A stretch of DNA of 31,106 bases from a virus: positions 1-31,106 of the IMG/VR virus record IMGVR_UViG_3300021424_003802; one strand, given 5' to 3'. Position numbers and translations under genes: made by a program. Positions 1,691 through 31,106 of this stretch are shown one piece after another (the first letter of the stretch is position 1; every line of letters starts with the position of its first letter). The notes beneath the pieces are model-generated. The model was not told where the DNA came from. It ran no database searches and was given only the letters and a program-made list of their open reading frames with translations.

Positions 1691-4318
1691 TTAATAACTT
1701 ACATTCGCGAACGAATGACCACCAAAAAATGTTGTGCCACCATTAAACGTGACCAGTGCTATAATATCTAGTTTATTTGCAATGCCAGAAGCAAGAACAG
1801 GCACTTCAGAATTTGACCAATATACTGTGTTTGAAAAATTCACAACATTTGCTGCAGTCGCTGGTTGTCGTAAAACTAACGTGATTGGACACCCATTACC
1901 AGAAGCAGGTGAATTAGTAAATGTAATTGCAACATTTGCATTTTGCAATGTTAAATCAAAAATATTATTTCCTGCCAAATTTGCAGTAAATGACGATGTA
2001 GTCACTGTTGCAGAATTCACTCTTTCAAAATATCCAAATAATTGTACATTACCAGAGGCAGCAGGACCTTGAGGACCTTGTGGACCAATTGGACCAACAT
2101 CAGTGATGTTGATGGTTCCGACCATTGAAGAGTGATACTGACAAATATAATACAACGTGTTTGGTGCATCGTATGGAACAGCAAACGTGACATCTCCAGT
2201 TTGTGTACCATTATTTGTCACACCACTGCTGTATGCACTGCCTGTACCTGTGACCGCAGCAGTTTTAATCCAGAATGGGTGACCAGATGCGTTTACACTG
2301 AAGATATAAGTAAATCCGCGCAATAAATTTAAAGTTGGATTATTTGATCCATCAATTACATACGCACCAGATCCACTGTTTGTTACAGTATATGTTCGTG
2401 CACCAACTGTGCCTTGTGGTCCTTGTGGACCAGTTGCGCCAGAGGGACCCTGCGGACCTTGTGGACCTTGCGGACCTTGAGGACCTTGTGGACCTTGAGG
2501 ACCTTGTGAACCAGTTGCACCTTGTGGACCCTGTGGTCCAGGAACAGTTGATGCATCACCTTGTGATCCTTGAGGACCTTGAGGACCCTGTGGACCTTGT
2601 GGACCTTGAGGACCTTGTGGACCAGTGCTACCTTGTGGTCCTTGCGGACCTTGTGGTCCAGTGGATCCAACAGAACCCTGTGGACCTTGCGGACCTTGTG
2701 GTCCAGTGCTACCTTGTGGTCCTTGCGGACCTTGTGGACCTTGTGGACCTTGCGGTCCCTGAGGACCACCAGCTGGACCTGATGGACCTTGTGGACCAGC
2801 GTTACCCTGTGACCCTTGAGGACCTTGTGGACCCTGTGGACCTTGTGGTCCCGCAGCACCATTCACGCCTATTGTTCCATTTGCACCTGCAGGACCCTGT
2901 GGACCTTGCGGACCTTGCGGACCTTGCGGACCTTGAGGACCTTGCGGACCTGCAACATTGGAAACACCAGAGGGACCTTGTGGACCCTGTGGACCTTGTG
3001 GTCCTTGTGATCCAGCTGCACCATTTGCACCTGCAGAACCTTGTGGTCCTTGTGGACCTTGCGGACCTTGTGGACCTTGTGGTCCCTGAGGACCACCCGC
3101 TGGACCTGCAGGACCTGCAGGACCTGTTGGACCAGCTGGACCAGCGGCACCTGCCAATCCAATGGCAGCAGATGTAAATGTTCTTGCTTCAATAACTGTA
3201 TTACTTATTGGCGCGACATTAAAAGTAAGTGTGGTGCCAGATACCTGATAATCGACTGTTGGAACTTGCGATGTGCCATCGATGTAAATAAACGCAAGAT
3301 CAGTATTTGAAGAGCGAGTTAAAGTAAATGAGGTGCATGAACCTGTGCCAGTAAATCGATCTGATGTTACACGAGAAATATCTGCAATGTTTAATAAACT
3401 AATCGATCGAGCTTCAATAACTACTCCATTTGATGGTGCAGTATTGAATGTAAGTAACGTTAAACCAACTTGATAATCTACTTCAGCTTTCTGAGCGACA
3501 CCATTAAAATAAACAAATGTTTTTACAGTTGTTGTATTTTGAGAGAGTGTAAATTGTGTGCACGCACCATTTCCCGTAAATCGATCAATCACAAACTCAT
3601 TTGTTGTTGTTGCACCAGAGGGACCTTGTGGACCCTGTGGACCTTGTGGACCTTGTGGACCTTGTGGACCAGTTACACCTTGCGGTCCTTGTGGTCCCTG
3701 AGGACCAGTGACGCCTTGTGGTCCTTGTGGACCTTGTGGACCTGCAACATTGGAAACACCAGAGGGACCTTGTGGACCTTGAGGACCTTGTGGACCTTGC
3801 GGTCCAGAGTCACCAATTGTATAAATCTCAACATTCGCACCATTTGCAGGAGCTGATGTAAACACGATTTGATTATTACTTACATTATAATCAGCATTGC
3901 CTTGTAAAACAGTGTTGACAAATACAAGCGTGTGCGATTCACTAGTTGGTGTGACAGTTAAAGTAAATGTTGTACACGAACCATTGCCCGAAAAGATGTC
4001 TCTTGTAGAGCCAGGATTTCCAGTGCCAGTGCCTCCAAGAGATGTGAACGAGATGTTTGCATTCGAACCATTTGCTGTAACAGAAATAGCAACAGTACTG
4101 GTGTTTACAAAATTAAGGTGTTTATTGGATAAAACTGAGTCACCGTTCGCTGAAACTTGAACAGTATTTGCTGCAGCGTTTACATTTGCAAAAAGATCAT
4201 GACCGCCAACATTGATTGAATTGATATTGGACAGATTTCTTGATGAATCAAGAACAATTGTGTTTGCAGCGTCCAGTCCATTTTTGATACTGAACGTTTT
4301 ATTAAGTGTTGTTGCCAT
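1691..4318 (-). CDS. Collagen-like tail fibre protein with cupredoxin-like domain
   Basis: 875 residues. Residues 1-31 are an N-terminal module shared with the next fibre ([20 protein letters not shown] here). Residues 106-168, about 241-306 and about 316-380 are three copies of a small fibre domain beginning F(S/T)GxG(S/A)CTxFTL, each with a conserved Cys. Gly-X-Y triplets, mostly GPQ, fill residues 172-237 and about 386-640 (roughly 100 triplets), which should give a long collagen triple helix. Residues about 641-738 look like a cupredoxin (His680, Cys726, His729, Met732). A unique C-terminal domain follows (about 753-875). Likely role: trimeric, rod-like adsorption fibre. The 48-base gap upstream has only a weak ribosome site, so this gene probably belongs to the fibre operon starting further upstream. 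Very confident as a fibre; domain functions are inferred. Confidence 0.9.
2105..2398 (-). other. Cupredoxin-like domain within collagen-like fibre
   Basis: Encodes residues about 641-738 of the 875-aa fibre. The segment reads as an alternating beta-strand domain with GHPFWIK near the middle and [16 protein letters not shown] at the end. The spacing His680, then Cys726-x2-His729-x2-Met732, resembles type 1 copper sites, where plastocyanin has His, then Cys-x2-His-x4-Met followed by a similar VG(K/T)I strand. Copper binding is inferred, not shown. A related copy is in the neighbouring 625-aa fibre. Confidence 0.6.
2399..3163 (-). repeat. 9-bp collagen-coding tandem repeat, long block
   Basis: Imperfect tandem 9-bp units, GGWCCTTGY on the plus strand, encoding Gly-Pro-Gln. 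The pattern is broken by short GAN, GST and GSV spacers and by two GPAGG phase shifts that insert one extra Gly. Such repeats easily expand or contract by slippage or recombination. They are coding and in frame. Confidence 0.9.
3608..3805 (-). repeat. 9-bp collagen-coding tandem repeat, short block
   Basis: Second block of GPQ-encoding 9-bp units in the same gene, about 22 triplets, separated from the long block by two globular fibre domains. The non-GPQ spacer GPSGVSNVA occurs in both blocks, which points to copying between them. Confidence 0.85.
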
Positions 4319-4366: not shown

Positions 4367-6244
4367 TTATGGTAAAATGCCATACCTCACTGAGCGAATT
4401 GTATTGATATTATTTGTAGCATTAAATAATAGTCGAACATCACCGCTTGAAATATCTGCGGAGAATGATCCGAGTGATGGACCTGTTTGAATTGTGCCAT
4501 ATTCTGTGATATAAACATTTGTTGCATCTTGAACTAGTACAATTTCTGTAGTATGATAGTTTGTAGAACTATTTGCCTGTACAAAATATTTTGTCGAGGC
4601 AAGTTGTGTTGCCGCAAATTTATCCAAGACAACTTGTCCAGAAGAGGAGGTTGTTACAGTATTTGTTGTAACATTTAAAGATCCAACCTGAAGCGAGAAT
4701 GTTACATTTGCATTCGCAACTGTTAATCCAACACCACCCGACGTAATCGTCACCGCACCATTTAGTGCTGACGTTCCTAATACTGTTAAGGCTGTATTAA
4801 TCGTAACTGGATTATTAAATTGTACAGTGTTACTATAAGTTGTTGTACCTGTAACGTTTAAATTTCCTGAAACGTTCGCAGTTGTAGCACTTATTGTGGT
4901 AACATTAATTAATTCTGCTTCTAAATTCGCAACAAGAGTTGCATTATTAAATGCACCAGTAATTACATTGGCAGTTAAATCACCCGTATAATCTGTAAAG
5001 AGTTTAAACTTACCGCTGTCTGACGCATCGCGGAAAAGACCTGCTTGTTTTGTTGTATCATATACACCAAAGAAACCAATATCAACTGCATCAGAAGTAT
5101 TATTTAATGCGAGTTTAATTAATGAATCTTCAACACTTAAAGTTGAAGTTTCGACAGTCGTTGTGTTTCCGAGTACGAATAAATTTCCAGTAACTGTCAT
5201 ATCCTTGTCGACAGTTACATTTGAAGCGAGAGTTAATGCTGCTGTAGGTCGACCAACGGAGGTAATTGATGCAGTATTCAGAGAAAATTCAATATTTCCA
5301 CGCTGTGCTGATGAACCAGATACTGATCCGCTTACATTAATACTTGCAGAGTTATTAAAGTTTACATTTGCATTTGCAATTAAAAGAGAATCATTGGTGT
5401 ATATTGCGACAAGATTTGCTGCAGCATTGGCTTGAGCATAAGCACCATTCGCTTGAGCATAGGCTCCATTAGCCTGAGCAAAGGCTAGATTTGCTTGAGC
5501 ATAAGCACCATTCGCTTGAGCATAGGCTCCGTTCGCCTGTGCATAAGCGCCATTGGCTTGCGCATAGGCTCCGTTGGCTTGAGCGTAAGCACCATTGGCT
5601 TGAGCATATGCAAAGGTCGATGGTGGTTCAATAACAATGTTACCAACCATGCCACCATGAGCTGTGCACTGATACACATATGTGTTGCCCTGTAATTCAT
5701 ATGGAACTTTCCAGTACAATGTACCAGTAACTTTACCTTGAGCAGCGGAGCCTGTTGTAACAACTCCAGCAGTTGAAACGTGAGTTAATCCAGTTTCAGT
5801 GTTTGCACCACCACTAGAAACACGAATTACAAATGGATGACCTGTTACATTTAAACTAAAGGCGAGTGATTCGCCTGCACGAACATACAATGTCGGATTA
5901 TTAACCGCTGCACCATATTGATCGAAGCGATATGCAGATGCGCCACTATTTGTTACATCTAATCTTGTTACCGCTGGCTGATAACTCGAATTCGCTTGAG
6001 CATAGGCTAAATTAGCGGTTGCATTTGCAACATTCGCAGTAGAATATGCCGAGTTGGCTTGATTATATGCGTTATTAGTATGATCTACTAGATTTAACCC
6101 AGCAACCGTAAGATATGTGCTCGCATTTATAGTGGTTGCATTCGCTGTAACAACATTCGATAAATTTCGATTCGAATCAACAATAATGGTATTTGCGACA
6201 TCAATACCATTTTTGACGCTAAACGTACGATTAAGAGTTGCCAT
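4367..6244 (-). CDS. Tail fibre protein with AYAQANG heptads and cupredoxin-like domain
   Basis: 625 residues. The first 30 residues match the N-terminal module of the collagen-like fibre (MATLNRTFSVKNGIDVANTI here), probably the attachment end. Residues 92-207 form a cupredoxin-like domain with His136, Cys193, His196 and Met199. Residues 211-275 are about nine AYAQANG-type heptads, a predicted helical trimeric shaft. A fibre domain with DIGFFGVYDTTKQAGLFRDA follows. The last 85 or so residues (HTTEIVLVQD, VYITEYGTIQ) match the C-terminus of the next fibre upstream. The start has a good ribosome site (AGGAGA five bases before ATG) and a T4-like late promoter motif (TATAAATA) just upstream. 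Likely role: host-contact fibre. Confident as fibre; exact position on the virion unknown. Confidence 0.88.
   Translation of the reverse strand: MATLNRTFSVKNGIDVANTIIVDSNRNLSNVVTANATTINASTYLTVAGLNLVDHTNNAYNQANSAYSTANVANATANLAYAQANSSYQPAVTRLDVTNSGASAYRFDQYGAAVNNPTLYVRAGESLAFSLNVTGHPFVIRVSSGGANTETGLTHVSTAGVVTTGSAAQGKVTGTLYWKVPYELQGNTYVYQCTAHGGMVGNIVIEPPSTFAYAQANGAYAQANGAYAQANGAYAQANGAYAQANGAYAQANLAFAQANGAYAQANGAYAQANAAANLVAIYTNDSLLIANANVNFNNSASINVSGSVSGSSAQRGNIEFSLNTASITSVGRPTAALTLASNVTVDKDMTVTGNLFVLGNTTTVETSTLSVEDSLIKLALNNTSDAVDIGFFGVYDTTKQAGLFRDASDSGKFKLFTDYTGDLTANVITGAFNNATLVANLEAELINVTTISATTANVSGNLNVTGTTTYSNTVQFNNPVTINTALTVLGTSALNGAVTITSGGVGLTVANANVTFSLQVGSLNVTTNTVTTSSSGQVVLDKFAATQLASTKYFVQANSSTNYHTTEIVLVQDATNVYITEYGTIQTGPSLGSFSADISSGDVRLLFNATNNINTIRSVRYGILP
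5420..5614 (-). repeat. 21-bp tandem repeat encoding AYAQANG heptads
   Basis: About nine imperfect 21-bp units (plus strand GCTTGAGCATAAGCACCATT and variants). Differences are mostly at third codon positions. The seven-residue period with Ala and Gln/Asn at fixed positions suits a trimeric coiled-coil-like shaft whose length could vary by unit gain or loss. Confidence 0.85.
5624..5971 (-). other. Cupredoxin-like domain within heptad fibre
   Basis: Encodes residues 92-207 of the 625-aa fibre. It parallels the copy in the collagen-like fibre: VTNSGASAY, then NNPTLYVRAG, GHPFVIR (His136), and VYQCTAHGGMVGNIVI (Cys193-x2-His196-x2-Met199). The conserved ligand set in two otherwise divergent copies supports a real metal site. 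Function is inferred. Confidence 0.6.
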
Positions 6245-6278: not shown

Positions 6279-7214
6279 TTAGGCTGTTAAAGCAGTTCTC
6301 ACAAGTTTTACAGTAATAATGTTATTATCAGGGTTATTTGGATGAAATATCAGATTACAGATACCACCAGCGACTGTCATAGAATAAGTACCGAGAGTAT
6401 AGGTATTAATAAGAGTTGCATATTCAGTTATATAAGCGGAAACTCCATCCTGCATCGTAAAGAGTTCGGTAGAATGATATGTATCCACTGTTTTAGACTG
6501 AATAATATATTTTACTGTAGTAAAATTTGAAGAGGAGAAACTATCGATAGTTATTGGAGCATTCGAGGTTGTTGTAAATACATTAAATGTGGTTTCGGTC
6601 GGACCTGAAACGATCACATTTGCAGAGACATATGAGGTGTTAACTGTCGTCGCACCGACTGTAATAGTCGAATTTTGTGTAGCCGACAGATTACCAGCTA
6701 AATTTACAGTAGCAACATTCGCAGTGCTTACATAAATTTGATTCCAAACTTTATTAGATGCACCGAGATTAAACGTATTTGATACATCAGGTATTAAATT
6801 ACTTGTAAAATCTGCAACAACAGAGACGGTATCTGTGTTTACATCACCGATAATTAAATTGCCATTTAGTGATATATCACCGCTTACATTTAAGTTTTGC
6901 TGGACGTTTAAAGTTCCAGTGACTGTACCACCAGCAATATTAAGTTTTAAATTTGCAAGATCGAATGCTGCGTTCGCTTGCGCATATGCCTCATTGGCAG
7001 CAGGACCAGAAGGACCAGTAGGACCAGCTGGACCTTGAGGACCCGTATTTCCTGTTGGTCCTTGAGGACCTTCTGGTCCACGAATGACTGAATCACGAAC
7101 GATTGTGCTACCAGTTTGCGGCTGAACAACCGCAATTTGATTCAGCGAAGGATTTACGACGACAGTTACTGTGTTACTAGTTGCCTGTACGATCGTGGGA
7201 TTTTCTAAACTCAT
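6279..7214 (-). CDS. Short tail fibre protein with collagen-like stalk
   Basis: 311 residues. The N-terminal part (1-46) differs from the other fibres. Residues about 48-73 are a short Gly-X-Y stalk (GPEGPQGPTGNTGPQGPAGP), then one or two AYAQAN/AFDLAN heptads, then a beta-rich fibre domain (GGTVTGTLNVQQNLNVSGDI). The C-terminal 85 or so residues (YHSTELFTMQDG, AYITEYATL) match the end of the 625-aa fibre. The start codon overlaps the stop of the upstream gene (ATGA), indicating translational coupling. Likely role: accessory or short fibre. Confident as a fibre by repeats and context. Confidence 0.85.
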   Translation of the reverse strand: MSLENPTIVQATSNTVTVVVNPSLNQIAVVQPQTGSTIVRDSVIRGPEGPQGPTGNTGPQGPAGPTGPSGPAANEAYAQANAAFDLANLKLNIAGGTVTGTLNVQQNLNVSGDISLNGNLIIGDVNTDTVSVVADFTSNLIPDVSNTFNLGASNKVWNQIYVSTANVATVNLAGNLSATQNSTITVGATTVNTSYVSANVIVSGPTETTFNVFTTTSNAPITIDSFSSSNFTTVKYIIQSKTVDTYHSTELFTMQDGVSAYITEYATLINTYTLGTYSMTVAGGICNLIFHPNNPDNNIITVKLVRTALTA

Positions 7215-7603: not shown

Positions 7604-8764
7604 TTATCCTATAAATCCTGGTTTGTATACAGTTTTTCCGTTCTCGGATAATGCTGTAAGTTTTTGTTTTCGATTTGGTCCCTTTGTTGTATAAGAAGCG
7701 TGAACCCAACCACTGTTTGGACCTTCTTTTGGATCATAAAACTCTAAGATGATTTGATCGAACTCACAATTTTCACTGACCCACTTGGCAAGATCTGGAT
7801 TTGGGAGCCCATCGATTTCGAAGTCAATCGCCTCACCATTGCAATGTTGAGACTTGCTAGAACCACCAACAGCACTATTAAGGGCAGGACCACGATAGCC
7901 AGAATTAATACGCACGGGCTTATTAAAATGACGCCGCACAGGTTCAAGAATTTTTTCGCATACATTTTTAAGGTTTTGAGCATGATCAGCATTTGGTGTA
8001 TTATCAATTCGCTTTCGAATCGCAGTCTCCGATTTTGTAAATTCTTTTAAATTAAAGTGTTCAGATAATTGCATTTCTGGATTTACTTTTCCAGCAGCAG
8101 GTGCAGCAGCTGGAGCAGGAGCAGCTGCAGGTTTTGCGGCTGGTGCAGGACCACTTAATTGCGCGAAGTATGTGTTCGTCTTAGCCTTGCGATCCTCCAA
8201 GCCGTGAGTACCACCATTAACTTTTTTACTAATGGATAATATCGAAGCATCATTTACTCCTGTGTCACATAATGCCCAAAGTTTATTTTTTTCAAAGAAG
8301 AACATCGCTGACTCAAATGCAAGTTCACCAGCAACAAGGTCTGGATTTGTCATTACATCTGGACGATTGCAGTATTTAGAGAACGCGAGGTAATTATCGC
8401 GACCTGTTAATTGTAATGCACCACGTCCACGAAACTTCCAACCATCACCCGTCATTTCTGCACCATTGCCCATGCGTCCCGCATAGACACGATTCGCAAT
8501 TGCCTCTGGCTTGCGCTCATACTTCAATGCTTCTGCATCTGTCTTAAAATACTTACCAAAAATACCACGCAATCCTTTGGCTCCGTAGTTTAGATTCTCG
8601 GTAAATGCTTTGAATCCACCCGTTTCATGAGCAGTTTGCCCAAAGAAATGCGCAGCGCGAGCTGGTGAAAGTTTATAATAAGCAGCAGCAGCACGCAGAG
8701 TCCCAGGACCCCACGCACCGTCTGCTGTTACGCCAATTTTCTTTTGTAATGCTGCTAAACTCAT
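7604..8764 (-). CDS. Endolysin: GH19 chitinase-like domain fused to M15 peptidase
   Basis: 386 residues. Residues 1-203 match the GH19 lysozyme/chitinase fold: GQTAHETGGF with the general-acid Glu47, GAKGLRGIFGKYF, then GWKFRGRGALQLTGRDNY (109-125). An Ala/Pro linker (206-225) joins it to a C-terminal D-Ala-D-Ala carboxypeptidase-like (M15_3 type) domain: SGYRGPALN, SQHCNGEAIDF (zinc ligands His307 and Asp314) and WVHASY (His355). The protein could therefore cut both the glycan and the peptide of peptidoglycan. No signal peptide is seen, so it would need a holin. The ribosome site is GAGGTGAT. It follows the holin candidate and the lipoprotein, forming a lysis cassette. Alternative: a virion-associated lysin, but the cassette context favours endolysin. 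Confidence 0.9.
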   Translation of the reverse strand: MSLAALQKKIGVTADGAWGPGTLRAAAAYYKLSPARAAHFFGQTAHETGGFKAFTENLNYGAKGLRGIFGKYFKTDAEALKYERKPEAIANRVYAGRMGNGAEMTGDGWKFRGRGALQLTGRDNYLAFSKYCNRPDVMTNPDLVAGELAFESAMFFFEKNKLWALCDTGVNDASILSISKKVNGGTHGLEDRKAKTNTYFAQLSGPAPAAKPAAAPAPAAAPAAGKVNPEMQLSEHFNLKEFTKSETAIRKRIDNTPNADHAQNLKNVCEKILEPVRRHFNKPVRINSGYRGPALNSAVGGSSKSQHCNGEAIDFEIDGLPNPDLAKWVSENCEFDQIILEFYDPKEGPNSGWVHASYTTKGPNRKQKLTALSENGKTVYKPGFIG

Positions 8765-27909: not shown

Positions 27910-27916
27910 TATTTAG
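27910..27916 (-). promoter_or_regulatory. Possible late promoter-like motif (CTAAATA)
   Basis: CTAAATA on the minus strand overlaps the stop codon of the epimerase gene, 36 bases before the ATG at 27874. This is where the sugar genes end and virion-type genes begin, so a promoter boundary makes sense. The same heptamer lies before the 687-aa gene. Confidence 0.3.
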
Positions 27917-28797
27917 TTATTTTTTCTAGTCAAGATCCCATATATAATATCGTCAATCGTTTGTTGAATCGTAAACTCTGGATTATATCCGAGATCTCGT
28001 AATTTGGTATTATCCATAAAAAAAGATCGAGATGACTGGACCGTTTTATGGAATTCTTTTTGTTCAATCGTTCGAATTTCTGATCCCGAATCCATAGAGT
28101 CACGAGCATAGCGTATCGTATCTCGGAAGATTATCGGTTTCCCATTTCCAATATTGTAGATAGAGTCCAACTCTCCTTTTGTTCGAACCAAATCGATTGC
28201 TCGAGCGCAATCGCGAACATCAATATAATCACGATAAAAATAACCAGAGTCGTAGAGCTCGATGGGTCGGTTTGCAGCGAGCTCGCCCAATAGATACTGG
28301 AGCGCGTTTTTCTTCGCAGATACTTTTTTATCTTGTTTACCCAATACATTTGCTAATCTCAGAATACGATAGTTTAAATTGAACGTCTCGCAGTAAGACA
28401 TAAGCAGCTGCTCGGCGCATCGTTTTGTAATCGAATAAAATCCTTTTGGATCACAGGGATCAGTCTCAGGAATACCACGTGAACCCTCGCCGAAGCCAGA
28501 GTCCTGCCCATAAACAAACCAAGAACTTATAAAGTTAAAACAACCTTTTTGTCTAGTTTTCTGCATATAACTGCGATAACTATCCAAAACCTTCATTAAA
28601 ATTACAAGGTTTGTATTAATATCTAGTAAAGAATCACGATGCACATTGTAGTTATCAACTGTGCTAATGAAATAAAGAACATTATTAGATCTTACCTCAT
28701 AATTATCTCGATCATTCAGTATCCATGGTGTTTTGGTGGTTCGAACATACTCAGAACCAACAAACCCACTTCCACCAAATATATTTACGATACCCAT
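27913..28797 (-). CDS. NAD(P)-dependent sugar-nucleotide epimerase/dehydratase/reductase
   Basis: 294 residues from the chosen ATG. Extended short-chain dehydrogenase: nucleotide-binding GGSGFVG at 8-14, SSWFVYG (91-97), catalytic YSITK (Tyr121, Lys125), and FYRDYIDVRDCARAIDL and YNIGNGKP typical of NDP-sugar enzymes. A TTG at 28827 would add ten residues before the Rossmann strand and lengthen the overlap with the upstream gene, so the ATG, 13 bases inside that gene's end, is preferred. After the RmlA/RmlB/dehydratase genes, it may perform the reduction or epimerisation that finishes a deoxysugar nucleotide. The exact reaction cannot be read from sequence. Confidence 0.8.
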   Translation of the reverse strand: MGIVNIFGGSGFVGSEYVRTTKTPWILNDRDNYEVRSNNVLYFISTVDNYNVHRDSLLDINTNLVILMKVLDSYRSYMQKTRQKGCFNFISSWFVYGQDSGFGEGSRGIPETDPCDPKGFYSITKRCAEQLLMSYCETFNLNYRILRLANVLGKQDKKVSAKKNALQYLLGELAANRPIELYDSGYFYRDYIDVRDCARAIDLVRTKGELDSIYNIGNGKPIIFRDTIRYARDSMDSGSEIRTIEQKEFHKTVQSSRSFFMDNTKLRDLGYNPEFTIQQTIDDIIYGILTRKNN

Positions 28798-30080
28798 TTT
28801 TGCATTACGCTTTCGTAATATTCCCAAACCTTATCACCATAATGAGGTGGGCAACCAACAAAGAACACATTACTGAGTGCCTTGTTTGCATATGGATATT
28901 TAGAGGCATCGTCAAGATGTTTGTAACCAGGATGCAAGAGAATATTCCCAGCAAAGTAGTTACGAGTCTGAATTCGATTTGCTTCGCAGAATGCCTGGAG
29001 TTTCTCCTTGAGTTCTGGAGTATCTGTAATCAAAGGAACACCGAACCACGAAGGATCAGCCTGATCAAGATTGCTTGCTACTCGAACACCAGGAACATAA
29101 CGCATGAAGAAACTCTTGATGCGCTGGAAATTTAGGCGACGCTTTACATCAATCTCATCAATCTTCTTTAATTGTTCAATGCCAATCGCACCTTGAAGAT
29201 CAAGTGGTTTGAGATTATATCCCATGTTTGAAAAAAGATACTTGTGATCAATTACACCATCATATCCGTCAAGCCATTTGTCAAAACGATTGCCACATGT
29301 ACCGCAAGCCAATAAATTAGCAGCACCGACGCAGCGGCAATCACGACCCCACCAACTAATCGAACGTGCTGTGTTAATAAGTTCTTCGTCATTTGAGCAA
29401 ACCATGCCTCCTTCGCCAGTTGAAATGTGATGTGCAGGATAAAACGAGCACGTCCACGAATAATAATATTCAGTCAATAATTTACCATCCCAGCGAGTAC
29501 CGAGAGAGTCGCAATTATCACCGATCAAAAGTAAATCATGTTTATTACAAATCTCTTGTATACGATCCATGTCGGGTGGATTACCAAGTACAGGTGATAC
29601 AAAAATAGCTGCTGTACGATCTGTAATTTTTTCTTCAAGTTTATTTAAATCAAAATTTAATGTATCCATTTCAATATCAACGAATACTGGAGTCATATTA
29701 TTTTGAATGATTGGAGCAATCGTAGTTGGAAACCCAACAGGAGAAACTAAAACCTCTACACCATCTTCAAGTTTGAGATGTTTTTTAAGAGCAGCGACCA
29801 TTGTGAGATTAGCCGATGAACCAGAATTCACCATATGACAATGTTTCGTATTGAACTTACGACCGAATGCCCACTGAAATTTTGCAACCTGCTCACCAGA
29901 AACAAGCCACTTGCCCGTGAGAAATGCAGTCACACCAGCAATGACTTCTTTCTCATCCCAATATGGACCAGAATAGAATACAGTATCTTTTTCAGGATTG
30001 AATTCTTTACAGTTGTATGCATATTTGGGAGTGCCAACGGCGGCAACCAAATCTTCAATCATCTGTTTCACTTCACTCAT
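28785..30080 (-). CDS. rfbH: PMP-dependent sugar 3-dehydratase of E1/RfbH type
   Basis: 431 residues, DegT/DnrJ/EryC1 fold. The segment SFYPAHHISTGEGGMV has His217 where aminotransferases of this fold have the PLP-binding Lys; this His is the hallmark of the 3-dehydratases E1 (RfbH/AscC/DdhC), SpnQ and ColD. DNCDSLG (Cys190) and GRDCRC ... CGTCGNRF (Cys248, 250, 259, 262) match the Cys-rich region holding the [2Fe-2S] cluster in E1-type enzymes, and DHKYLFSNMGYNLKPLDLQ is also typical. Length is close to E1 (about 437). Role: removal of the C3 hydroxyl from a 4-keto-6-deoxy sugar nucleotide. The upstream dTDP-sugar genes suggest a dTDP substrate, as for SpnQ. The start overlaps the rmlA stop (TAATG) with a GAGGAAG ribosome site. 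Confidence 0.85.
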   Translation of the reverse strand: MSEVKQMIEDLVAAVGTPKYAYNCKEFNPEKDTVFYSGPYWDEKEVIAGVTAFLTGKWLVSGEQVAKFQWAFGRKFNTKHCHMVNSGSSANLTMVAALKKHLKLEDGVEVLVSPVGFPTTIAPIIQNNMTPVFVDIEMDTLNFDLNKLEEKITDRTAAIFVSPVLGNPPDMDRIQEICNKHDLLLIGDNCDSLGTRWDGKLLTEYYYSWTCSFYPAHHISTGEGGMVCSNDEELINTARSISWWGRDCRCVGAANLLACGTCGNRFDKWLDGYDGVIDHKYLFSNMGYNLKPLDLQGAIGIEQLKKIDEIDVKRRLNFQRIKSFFMRYVPGVRVASNLDQADPSWFGVPLITDTPELKEKLQAFCEANRIQTRNYFAGNILLHPGYKHLDDASKYPYANKALSNVFFVGCPPHYGDKVWEYYESVMQKWVS

Positions 30081-30952
30081 TATCTCTTCCTCAAAATTTG
30101 GCCAAGATATTTGCCATAATCTGACTTACTATACTTTTCTGCGGAACGACGAACATCATGCTCAGTAATCCATGCATTCTTATACGCAATTTCTTCTGGG
30201 CATGCAATCATCATTCCTGTTCTCTTTTGCACTGAACCCACAAACATAGAGGCTTCCGATAGAGATTCAAATGTTCCTGTATCAATCCAAGCAATCCCAC
30301 GATTTAAATACTCAATCTTGCAATCGAAATTCTCCAGATAAAGATTGTTAATATCAGTAATTTCTAACTCGCCTCGCGCAGAGGGTCTAATCCTCCAAGC
30401 ATATTCTACTACTTTATTGTCGTAAAAGTAAAGTCCAGTGACAGCATAATTACTTGGTGCAATTTTAGGTTTCTCAACAATCTTAATTGGATGACCCTCT
30501 GTATTTTGCTCAACAACACCAAATCTTTCTGGGTCAGATACATGATAGGCGAAGAGTGTACAACCAGCATTATTCCAAGTTGCTGCATTGAATCGATTAA
30601 TCAATTCGTTTCCATAAAAAATATTATCGCCAAGAATCAGCGTAACATCATCTCTACCAATCCATTTATCGGCAATACGAAAACACTCAGCAATTCCTTT
30701 TGGTTCTAATTGAACTTCATAAGAAATTTCTACTCCCCATTGAGATCCATCGCCGCAAAGACGTTTAAATGCTGCGGCATCATTCGGTGAATTGATAATC
30801 AAAATATCTCGAATACCTGCCATCATTAGCGTTGATAATGGATAATAAACGAGAGGTTTATCATAAACAGGCAATAACTGTTTTGATGTAACTTCAGTGC
30901 ATGGATATAATCTTGTTCCTAGTCCACCAGATAGTATAATTCCTTTTCTCAT
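30080..30952 (-). CDS. rmlA: Glucose-1-phosphate thymidylyltransferase
   Basis: 290 residues from the ATG at 30952. It has the full RmlA signature: GIILSGGLGTRLYPCT with the pyrophosphorylase loop, SKQLLPVYDKPLVYYPLSTL, GDGSQWGVEISYEVQ, LGDNIFYG, FGVVE, EKPKIAPSNYAVTGLYFYD and WIDTGTFESL. It makes dTDP-glucose from glucose 1-phosphate and dTTP. A GTG at 30961 would extend the protein by three residues, but the ATG overlaps the stop of the rmlB fragment as ATGA and aligns with family starts. A GGAG ribosome site lies in the end of rmlB. Very confident. Confidence 0.95.
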   Translation of the reverse strand: MRKGIILSGGLGTRLYPCTEVTSKQLLPVYDKPLVYYPLSTLMMAGIRDILIINSPNDAAAFKRLCGDGSQWGVEISYEVQLEPKGIAECFRIADKWIGRDDVTLILGDNIFYGNELINRFNAATWNNAGCTLFAYHVSDPERFGVVEQNTEGHPIKIVEKPKIAPSNYAVTGLYFYDNKVVEYAWRIRPSARGELEITDINNLYLENFDCKIEYLNRGIAWIDTGTFESLSEASMFVGSVQKRTGMMIACPEEIAYKNAWITEHDVRRSAEKYSKSDYGKYLGQILRKR

Positions 30953-31106
30953 TTGTACCACTCCAATGTTTTACGAATTCCCTCAGTGATATTAGTCTTT
31001 GCTTTCCATCCGAGTTCTCGTTCAAGTTTTGACGAATTCATTGCGTATCTAAAATCATGACCTTTACGATCAGTTACAAAATTGATCCAGTTCTGATACA
31101 TGTGAA
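30949..31106 (-). CDS. rmlB: dTDP-glucose 4,6-dehydratase, C-terminal fragment
   Basis: The last 51 codons and stop of a gene entering from the right edge. The peptide (NWINFVTDRKGHDFRYAMNS, then SKLERELGWKAKTNITEGI and RKTLEWYK) is the standard RmlB ending: FVxDRxGHDxRYA, a Ser-Lys helix, ELGW and EGIRKTxEWY. The family makes dTDP-4-keto-6-deoxyglucose from dTDP-glucose and is usually paired with rmlA, as here with an ATGA overlap. The N-terminal Rossmann part and catalytic residues lie outside the window. Confidence 0.85.
   Translation of the reverse strand, partial: HMYQNWINFVTDRKGHDFRYAMNSSKLERELGWKAKTNITEGIRKTLEWYK

Follow-up and report, generated by a model that had tools for sequence, protein, structure and literature searches.

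Residues 92-207 of a tail-fibre protein encoded by a 31,106-base record of an aquatic virus of bacteria (the whole stretch analysed, here called the window) form, according to structure prediction, a cupredoxin-fold domain, the fold of the blue copper proteins that work in photosynthesis and respiration. It has a complete His-Cys-His-Met type 1 (blue-copper-like) site, and on balance we favour reading it as an outward-facing copper-binding module, used in fibres and baseplates, that serves stabilisation and surface contact. To judge from the sequence, the metal would be copper. Tail-fibre and baseplate-like genes form a block on the minus strand of the record, and the fibre in question is built as follows:

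4367..6244, minus strand: tail-fibre protein of 625 amino acids, an open reading frame with ATG start that matches PHROG tail families
5972..6082, minus strand: heptad-repeat stretch N-terminal to the domain, seen in the translation
5624..5971, minus strand: cupredoxin-like domain, residues 92-207, called copy 1 (AlphaFold2, Foldseek, VIA, Pfam)
5420..5611, minus strand: heptad-repeat stretch (AYAQANG) C-terminal to copy 1, seen in the translation and as a tandem repeat

A preliminary description of the sequence had named the domain and its residues His136, Cys193, His196 and Met199. Its positions are exact, residues 92-207 running from 5971 to 5624, and the heptad-repeat setting that it had assumed is real, since heptads flank the domain on both sides. 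From N- to C-terminus, our reading of the translation yields an N-terminal part, heptad repeats, the cupredoxin domain, heptad repeats, a beta-rich part and a C-terminal domain. The AYAQANG heptads are underlain by a 21-base tandem repeat at 5421-5612, and phrog_677 matches residues 15-206 of the protein (E 1.1e-29).

That the fold is cupredoxin-like had likewise been proposed, and structure prediction with fold search supports it. AlphaFold2, supplied with residues 87-212 and an alignment of 85 sequences from the window and the loci, returned a model of copy 1 with a pLDDT of 94.4 and a pTM of 0.88. With this model, Foldseek found 56 PDB matches at E<=0.001. All 50 matches listed are cupredoxin-fold proteins (best E 1.6e-5), provided that EfeO and cytochrome oxidase subunit II are counted as such, as we assume; they include rusticyanin, AcoP, copper nitrite reductase, amicyanin, plastocyanin, pseudoazurin and laccases. 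The query-normalised TM-scores are moderate (0.41-0.55), and the domain therefore belongs clearly, if distantly, to the fold. In VIA-align 2, 268 of 999 chains reached a Z of at least 8, the highest being copper nitrite reductase (Z 11.0, rmsd 2.4 over 109 residues); residues 24-137 of 2dv6 gave Z 10.7 and rmsd 2.2 at 24% identity. By its predicted model and the structures that match it, copy 1 thus has the cupredoxin-type beta-barrel that defines the superfamily. In the numbering of our alignment A1 (see below), Cys107 ends the strand 102-107 of the model, and the loop after this strand holds His110 and Met113, an arrangement compatible with convergence of the ligand side chains. Predicted structures that match the model include those of cyanophage fibres, connectors, proteases and some giant-virus beta-sandwich proteins.

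Sequence families place the domain in the same neighbourhood. The Pfam family Copper-bind (PF00127) finds copy 1 with E 0.0015 and 19.4 bits (19.0 in a second scan), which is below the curated 21.2, and at E<=0.1 it finds only 31 of the 85 A1 members. In the PDB, phmmer gave six matches, every one of them to plastocyanin or amicyanin (E 0.05-0.48). A profile search listed 60 matches, 57 of which are copper proteins or cytochrome oxidase subunit II; the remaining three weak ones (E 0.24) are an unrelated toxin chain, which we take as chance. In NCBIfam, copy 1 matches amicyanin and plastocyanin far under the equivalog cut-offs (TIGR02656, 14.3 versus 87.85; TIGR02657, 15.5 versus 110.2), and membership in either equivalog was rejected for this reason. 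With three bacterial copper proteins, hhalign aligned the C-terminal 29 columns only. The plant-named At5g54830-like domain (PF25489) is matched by 19 of the 85 A1 members, the one at window positions 5609-5986 included (best E 2.3e-6); it may share the fold group of the fibre domain. A free host-type plastocyanin (petE) was rejected, because the domain sits inside a fibre; in cyanophages, petE is a separate gene according to the excerpted text of PMC3037559.

The ligands deserve a closer look. Alignment A1 comprises 85 sequences with a mean identity of about 40%, redundant places (more than 90% alike) having been removed beforehand; a cut sequence of 75 residues (L041) was dropped before the 173 places were counted. 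Only six columns are invariant, P31, H50, P51, C107, H110 and M113, which correspond to Pro117, His136, Pro137, Cys193, His196 and Met199 of the fibre, an invariance that leaves out one known exception, the ligand-less L001:8371-8790, which A1 excludes. With that exclusion understood, the proposed ligands of copy 1 are encoded at these positions:

5837..5839, minus strand: codon of His136 (in GHPF), proposed ligand 1, invariant in A1 (85/85)
5648..5668, minus strand: codons of Cys193-Thr-Ala-His196-Gly-Gly-Met199, the C-x2-H-x2-M loop with the other three proposed ligands, all three invariant in A1 (85/85)

His136 is found in the motif GHPFVIR, and Cys193, His196 and Met199 in VYQCTAHGGMVGNIVI. 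In the best phmmer alignment these four residues fall on His, Cys, His and Met of plastocyanin, the copper ligands of that protein. The type 1 set typical of the superfamily, His ... Cys-x-x-His-x(n)-Met, is present in this order and is conserved. The residues between the ligands are variable (entropy 1.6-2.9 bits), and 93 distinct C-x2-H-x2-M loops were seen. The whole 625-residue fibre contains five His, three Met and a single Cys, and this sole Cys is the proposed ligand. Among 200,000 shuffles of the protein, C..H..M turned up in five and HP(40-75)C..H..M in none; together with the conservation in A1, this led us to reject a chance motif for copy 1.

An HMM search through all open frames of 224 loci collected 267 domains, 188 of them distinct. 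All four ligands are present in 175 of the 188, one reads HCHQ, eight have at most one ligand, and four are truncated by a locus end or a stop. The conservation of the ligands in homologues, on which the preliminary description had made its site depend, is thereby confirmed. No non-truncated domain has two ligands, and the only one with three is an acidobacterial relative (L173:5854-6333) in which Gln replaces the axial Met (CQFHSSQ). A Met to Gln change at the axial ligand is known from stellacyanin. Such an all-or-none pattern would be expected from selection on a joint metal site; packing would be hard put to explain it. Of course, the search peptides themselves held the ligands, so domains without a ligand-bearing search peptide were counted separately. 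They number 89: 78 are HCHM, three are truncated, and eight have at most one ligand. We therefore rejected the idea that the conservation is a search artefact, the more so as eight of the 11 gp9 loci had been found via whole gp9.

The exceptions are instructive. Members of the family without ligands are L001:8371-8790, L222, L223 and L224. Three virus records hold both an intact and a ligand-less copy, the latter in open frames of 4,364-4,855 amino acids. The ligand-less frame of L223 comes directly after what we read as a probable baseplate protein gene. Its ligand-less copy was modelled with a pLDDT of 89.0, and by our count 46 of the 50 PDB matches listed are cupredoxin-fold proteins, among which we presume to include the A domains of coagulation factors; the other four are SO1698 and were not counted. 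A ligand-less copy thus retains the predicted fold, and the metal site is therefore not needed to specify it. Where the site is intact, it is probably kept for a reason beyond fold specification alone.

The window contains another copy, at 2389-2105, which the preliminary description had overlooked:

1691..4318, minus strand: collagen-repeat fibre protein of 875 amino acids that carries copy 2 (Pfam Collagen, E 4.8e-40; phrog_677 and phrog_9158 within residues 636-740)
2105..2389, minus strand: cupredoxin-like domain, copy 2 (GHPFWIK ...), with all four ligands present in the translation; 46% identity to copy 1, E 3.4e-13

In a tree, copies 1 and 2 fall in separate groups, and copy 2 adjoins a mainly cellular group (support 0.76). 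The 875-residue fibre also has repeated GNGxCTxFTL-like stretches ahead of its collagen part; the first of them matches Phage_T7_tail (E 0.0008) and DUF4183 (E 0.0015), both under the cut-off.

The module is common in phages. The preliminary description had mentioned similar segments in marine phages, and rightly so: of 50,697 phage records, 329 match copy 1 at E<=1e-3, nearly all of them from cyanobacterial phages; for copy 2, the number at this threshold is 354. The organism names of the matching records begin with Synechococcus, Cyanophage, Prochlorococcus, Marine, Pelagibacter, Actinomycetia or uncultured. The gp9 of marine T4-like cyanophages, annotated as the baseplate wedge-tail fibre connector, has the module as its C-terminal domain. 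The gp9 of P-RSM4 is matched by 332 records, in 287 of which the match spans at least 80% of the protein; all 34 of the listed matches with this coverage extend to the last residues. His, Cys, His and Met are kept in the gp9 of all 11 phages inspected. Aeromonas phage Aeh1 matches gp9 within the first 41 residues only; the module is therefore absent from some T4-like gp9. P-RSM4 and Syn30 have a divergent C-x2-H-x2-M module in the baseplate protein adjoining gp9. One to four copies are found in each of 20 virus records (20/20), all of which, the window included, had been picked as carriers. In the whole genome of one cyanophage, S-CREM2, no match to the module was detected. The virion proteome of S-CREM2 includes a baseplate wedge protein of similar length, as the excerpt of PMC10665884 has it; we rejected it as a carrier because the domain is absent from its sequence. 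For S-SM1, 41 virion proteins are reported in PMC3037559, in the main text of which no mention of gp9 was found. The records and literature examined do not mention a metal site for gp9.

The position of the module in its proteins differs widely. In C-terminally closed frames, 36 of 124 distinct phage domains end within 15 residues of the C-terminus, and 78 lie more than 150 residues before it. The window fibre itself is not a gp9. When the whole 625-residue protein was compared with the phage records at E<=1e-8, the matches lay within residues 87-207 or 541-616 only (14 of 14 records), and this identity was rejected because there is no whole-length similarity and because phrog_677 aligned in its C-terminal part only.

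Cells have the domain too. With copy 2 as the query, 27 cellular loci were found, in Alphaproteobacteria (OCS116, PS1, Rhodobiaceae), Flavobacteriia, Acidobacteria and others. Bacterial GHPFWIK domains are 47-63% identical to copy 2. The ligands are kept throughout, apart from the one Met to Gln change and a domain cut by a stop (L192). About one third of the carrier proteins have, by eye, a secretion- or lipoprotein-like start, and some also hold CHRD, DUF7282, Lipoprotein_15 or collagen in the same protein. Proteins of the OCS116 and PS1 clades (L189, L186, L188, L172 and others) contain two successive copies, both with full ligand sets. At least one cellular locus is surrounded by ordinary chromosomal genes. 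In the flavobacterial family of G014, itself a carrier, matches occur in 7 of 80 genomes; the cellular version is therefore patchy. By sequence similarity, the module occurs in phage fibres, in the gp9 connectors of baseplates and in cellular proteins of a surface-like type.

How does the domain compare with better known systems? Amicyanin resembles it in the C-x2-H-x2-M spacing and appears among the Foldseek and phmmer matches. It is, however, a free periplasmic electron carrier. In plastocyanin-type sites, such as those of plastocyanin and amicyanin, Asn follows the first ligand His, whereas the fibre domain has His-Pro, with Pro at this place in 85 of 85 A1 sequences. Multicopper oxidases also carry His-Pro at the first type 1 ligand. 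Plastocyanin shares the ligand order His, Cys, His, Met, all four aligned, but its ligand loop is two residues longer. The cupredoxin domains of copper nitrite reductase and multicopper oxidases are the best VIA matches (Z about 10-11); these are parts of enzymes with further copper centres, none of which is seen in the fibre. Marine cyanophage gp9 has the same module and ligands at its C-terminus, while the window copies are internal to fibres. As in the tail tips gp37 of T4 and gpV of P2, the proposed metal would be held by an external tail protein; there, however, the His sites lie between chains, whereas here a type 1 site would lie inside one domain. In the literature searched, which lay mostly outside subscription journals, no phage structural protein was described as having a cupredoxin domain or a copper site. 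New here are copy 2, the all-or-none ligand pattern, the module in cyanophage gp9 and the cellular relatives.

As functions, the preliminary description had offered fibre stability, copper sensing or receptor binding, each still a conjecture. A plausible mechanism can be outlined. The module would have been inserted between two heptad-repeat stretches of the tail fibre. In plastocyanin, both termini are at the end opposite the copper; because of this, and of the insertion between coiled-coil stretches, the copper end would be directed outward, away from the fibre axis. Cytoplasmic copper being scarce, the site would be filled after the virion has left the reducing cytoplasm, in the periplasm or post-lysis. 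The copper affinity of type 1 sites is high enough for such late loading. Once bound, copper would clamp the loop that bears three of the four ligands, protect the exposed beta-sandwich and shield the thiol in oxic water. It might also present a rigid surface for contact that depends on copper. Such a part in display and contact is a proposal.

Not every element of this scheme is needed to account for the site. With the same fold and a real metal site, the function could be purely structural, copper or a different thiophilic metal (zinc or silver, for instance) stiffening an exposed spacer that has no part in host contact. The occurrence of the module in very different proteins and places (36 of 124 near the C-terminal end, 78 of 124 more than 150 residues before it, and ending gp9) suits such an all-purpose building block better than a tip specialised for a receptor. 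Yet the ligand-less copy keeps its predicted fold, so the fold can manage without the site, and the cellular relatives retain the same site on other scaffolds; we consider a purely structural function unlikely, if still a serious competitor. Another assumption is that the four residues are simply inherited or serve core packing and that the virion carries no metal at all. The bacterial cytoplasm, indeed, has almost no free copper. The four residues are, however, lost or retained jointly while the residues between them vary, and the sole single change is the Met to Gln known from stellacyanin, which makes a metal-free domain quite improbable. Electron transfer, or sensing of the redox state at the host surface, comes to mind because the classical single-domain cupredoxins with such a site are electron carriers. 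But the domain is covalently built into a fibre, and no redox partner gene was found among the window proteins scanned; we hardly believe in a redox role, and stabilisation plus surface contact is the more likely function.

A more adventurous idea is docking that depends on copper: the loaded domain would mimic a secreted host cupredoxin and be recognised by a copper-handling protein of the host surface. A Trojan-horse idea of this kind, with iron, was reportedly put forward for phages in 2016; docking would be its copper version. The bacterial domains that come as close as 47-63% identity to copy 2, about a third of them with secretion- or lipoprotein-like starts, speak for it, as does the grouping of copy 2 beside the mainly cellular group. 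In T4, however, gp9 is a connector and not a tip, and we regard docking as rather improbable. A precedent exists in azurin, which is secreted by a T6SS and binds OprC, a TonB-dependent outer-membrane copper transporter, according to the excerpt of PMC6907878.

If the favoured reading, a copper-binding module for stabilisation and contact, is true, a type 1 copper site conserved in phage tails would link trace-metal chemistry to infection, and copper would join the few metals already known from such tails. Marine cyanophages rank with the most abundant viruses in the sea, and copper may be borne on the exterior of the tails of many ocean viruses. One might go further and suppose that most marine T4-like and many other aquatic phages are copper-bearing, with type 1 copper centres displayed on their baseplate connectors and fibres, and that copper from the water arms a surface that recognises copper proteins of the host, thus tuning infection. 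This is a long shot.

Some other features of the window are worth recording. The 625- and 311-residue fibre proteins share, by eye, a similar C-terminal domain of about 85 residues (4367-4620 and 6279-6530, minus strand), which a tail fibre of phage S-SM2 matches at 43%. A likely two-domain lysin is encoded at 7604-8764 (minus strand), with a GH19-like part (E 7.4e-6) and a Peptidase_M15_3 part (E 6.4e-19). At 27913-30961 (minus strand), three sugar-nucleotide genes adjoin each other, an epimerase, a DegT-type aminotransferase and a nucleotidyl transferase, perhaps with a role in glycan modification.
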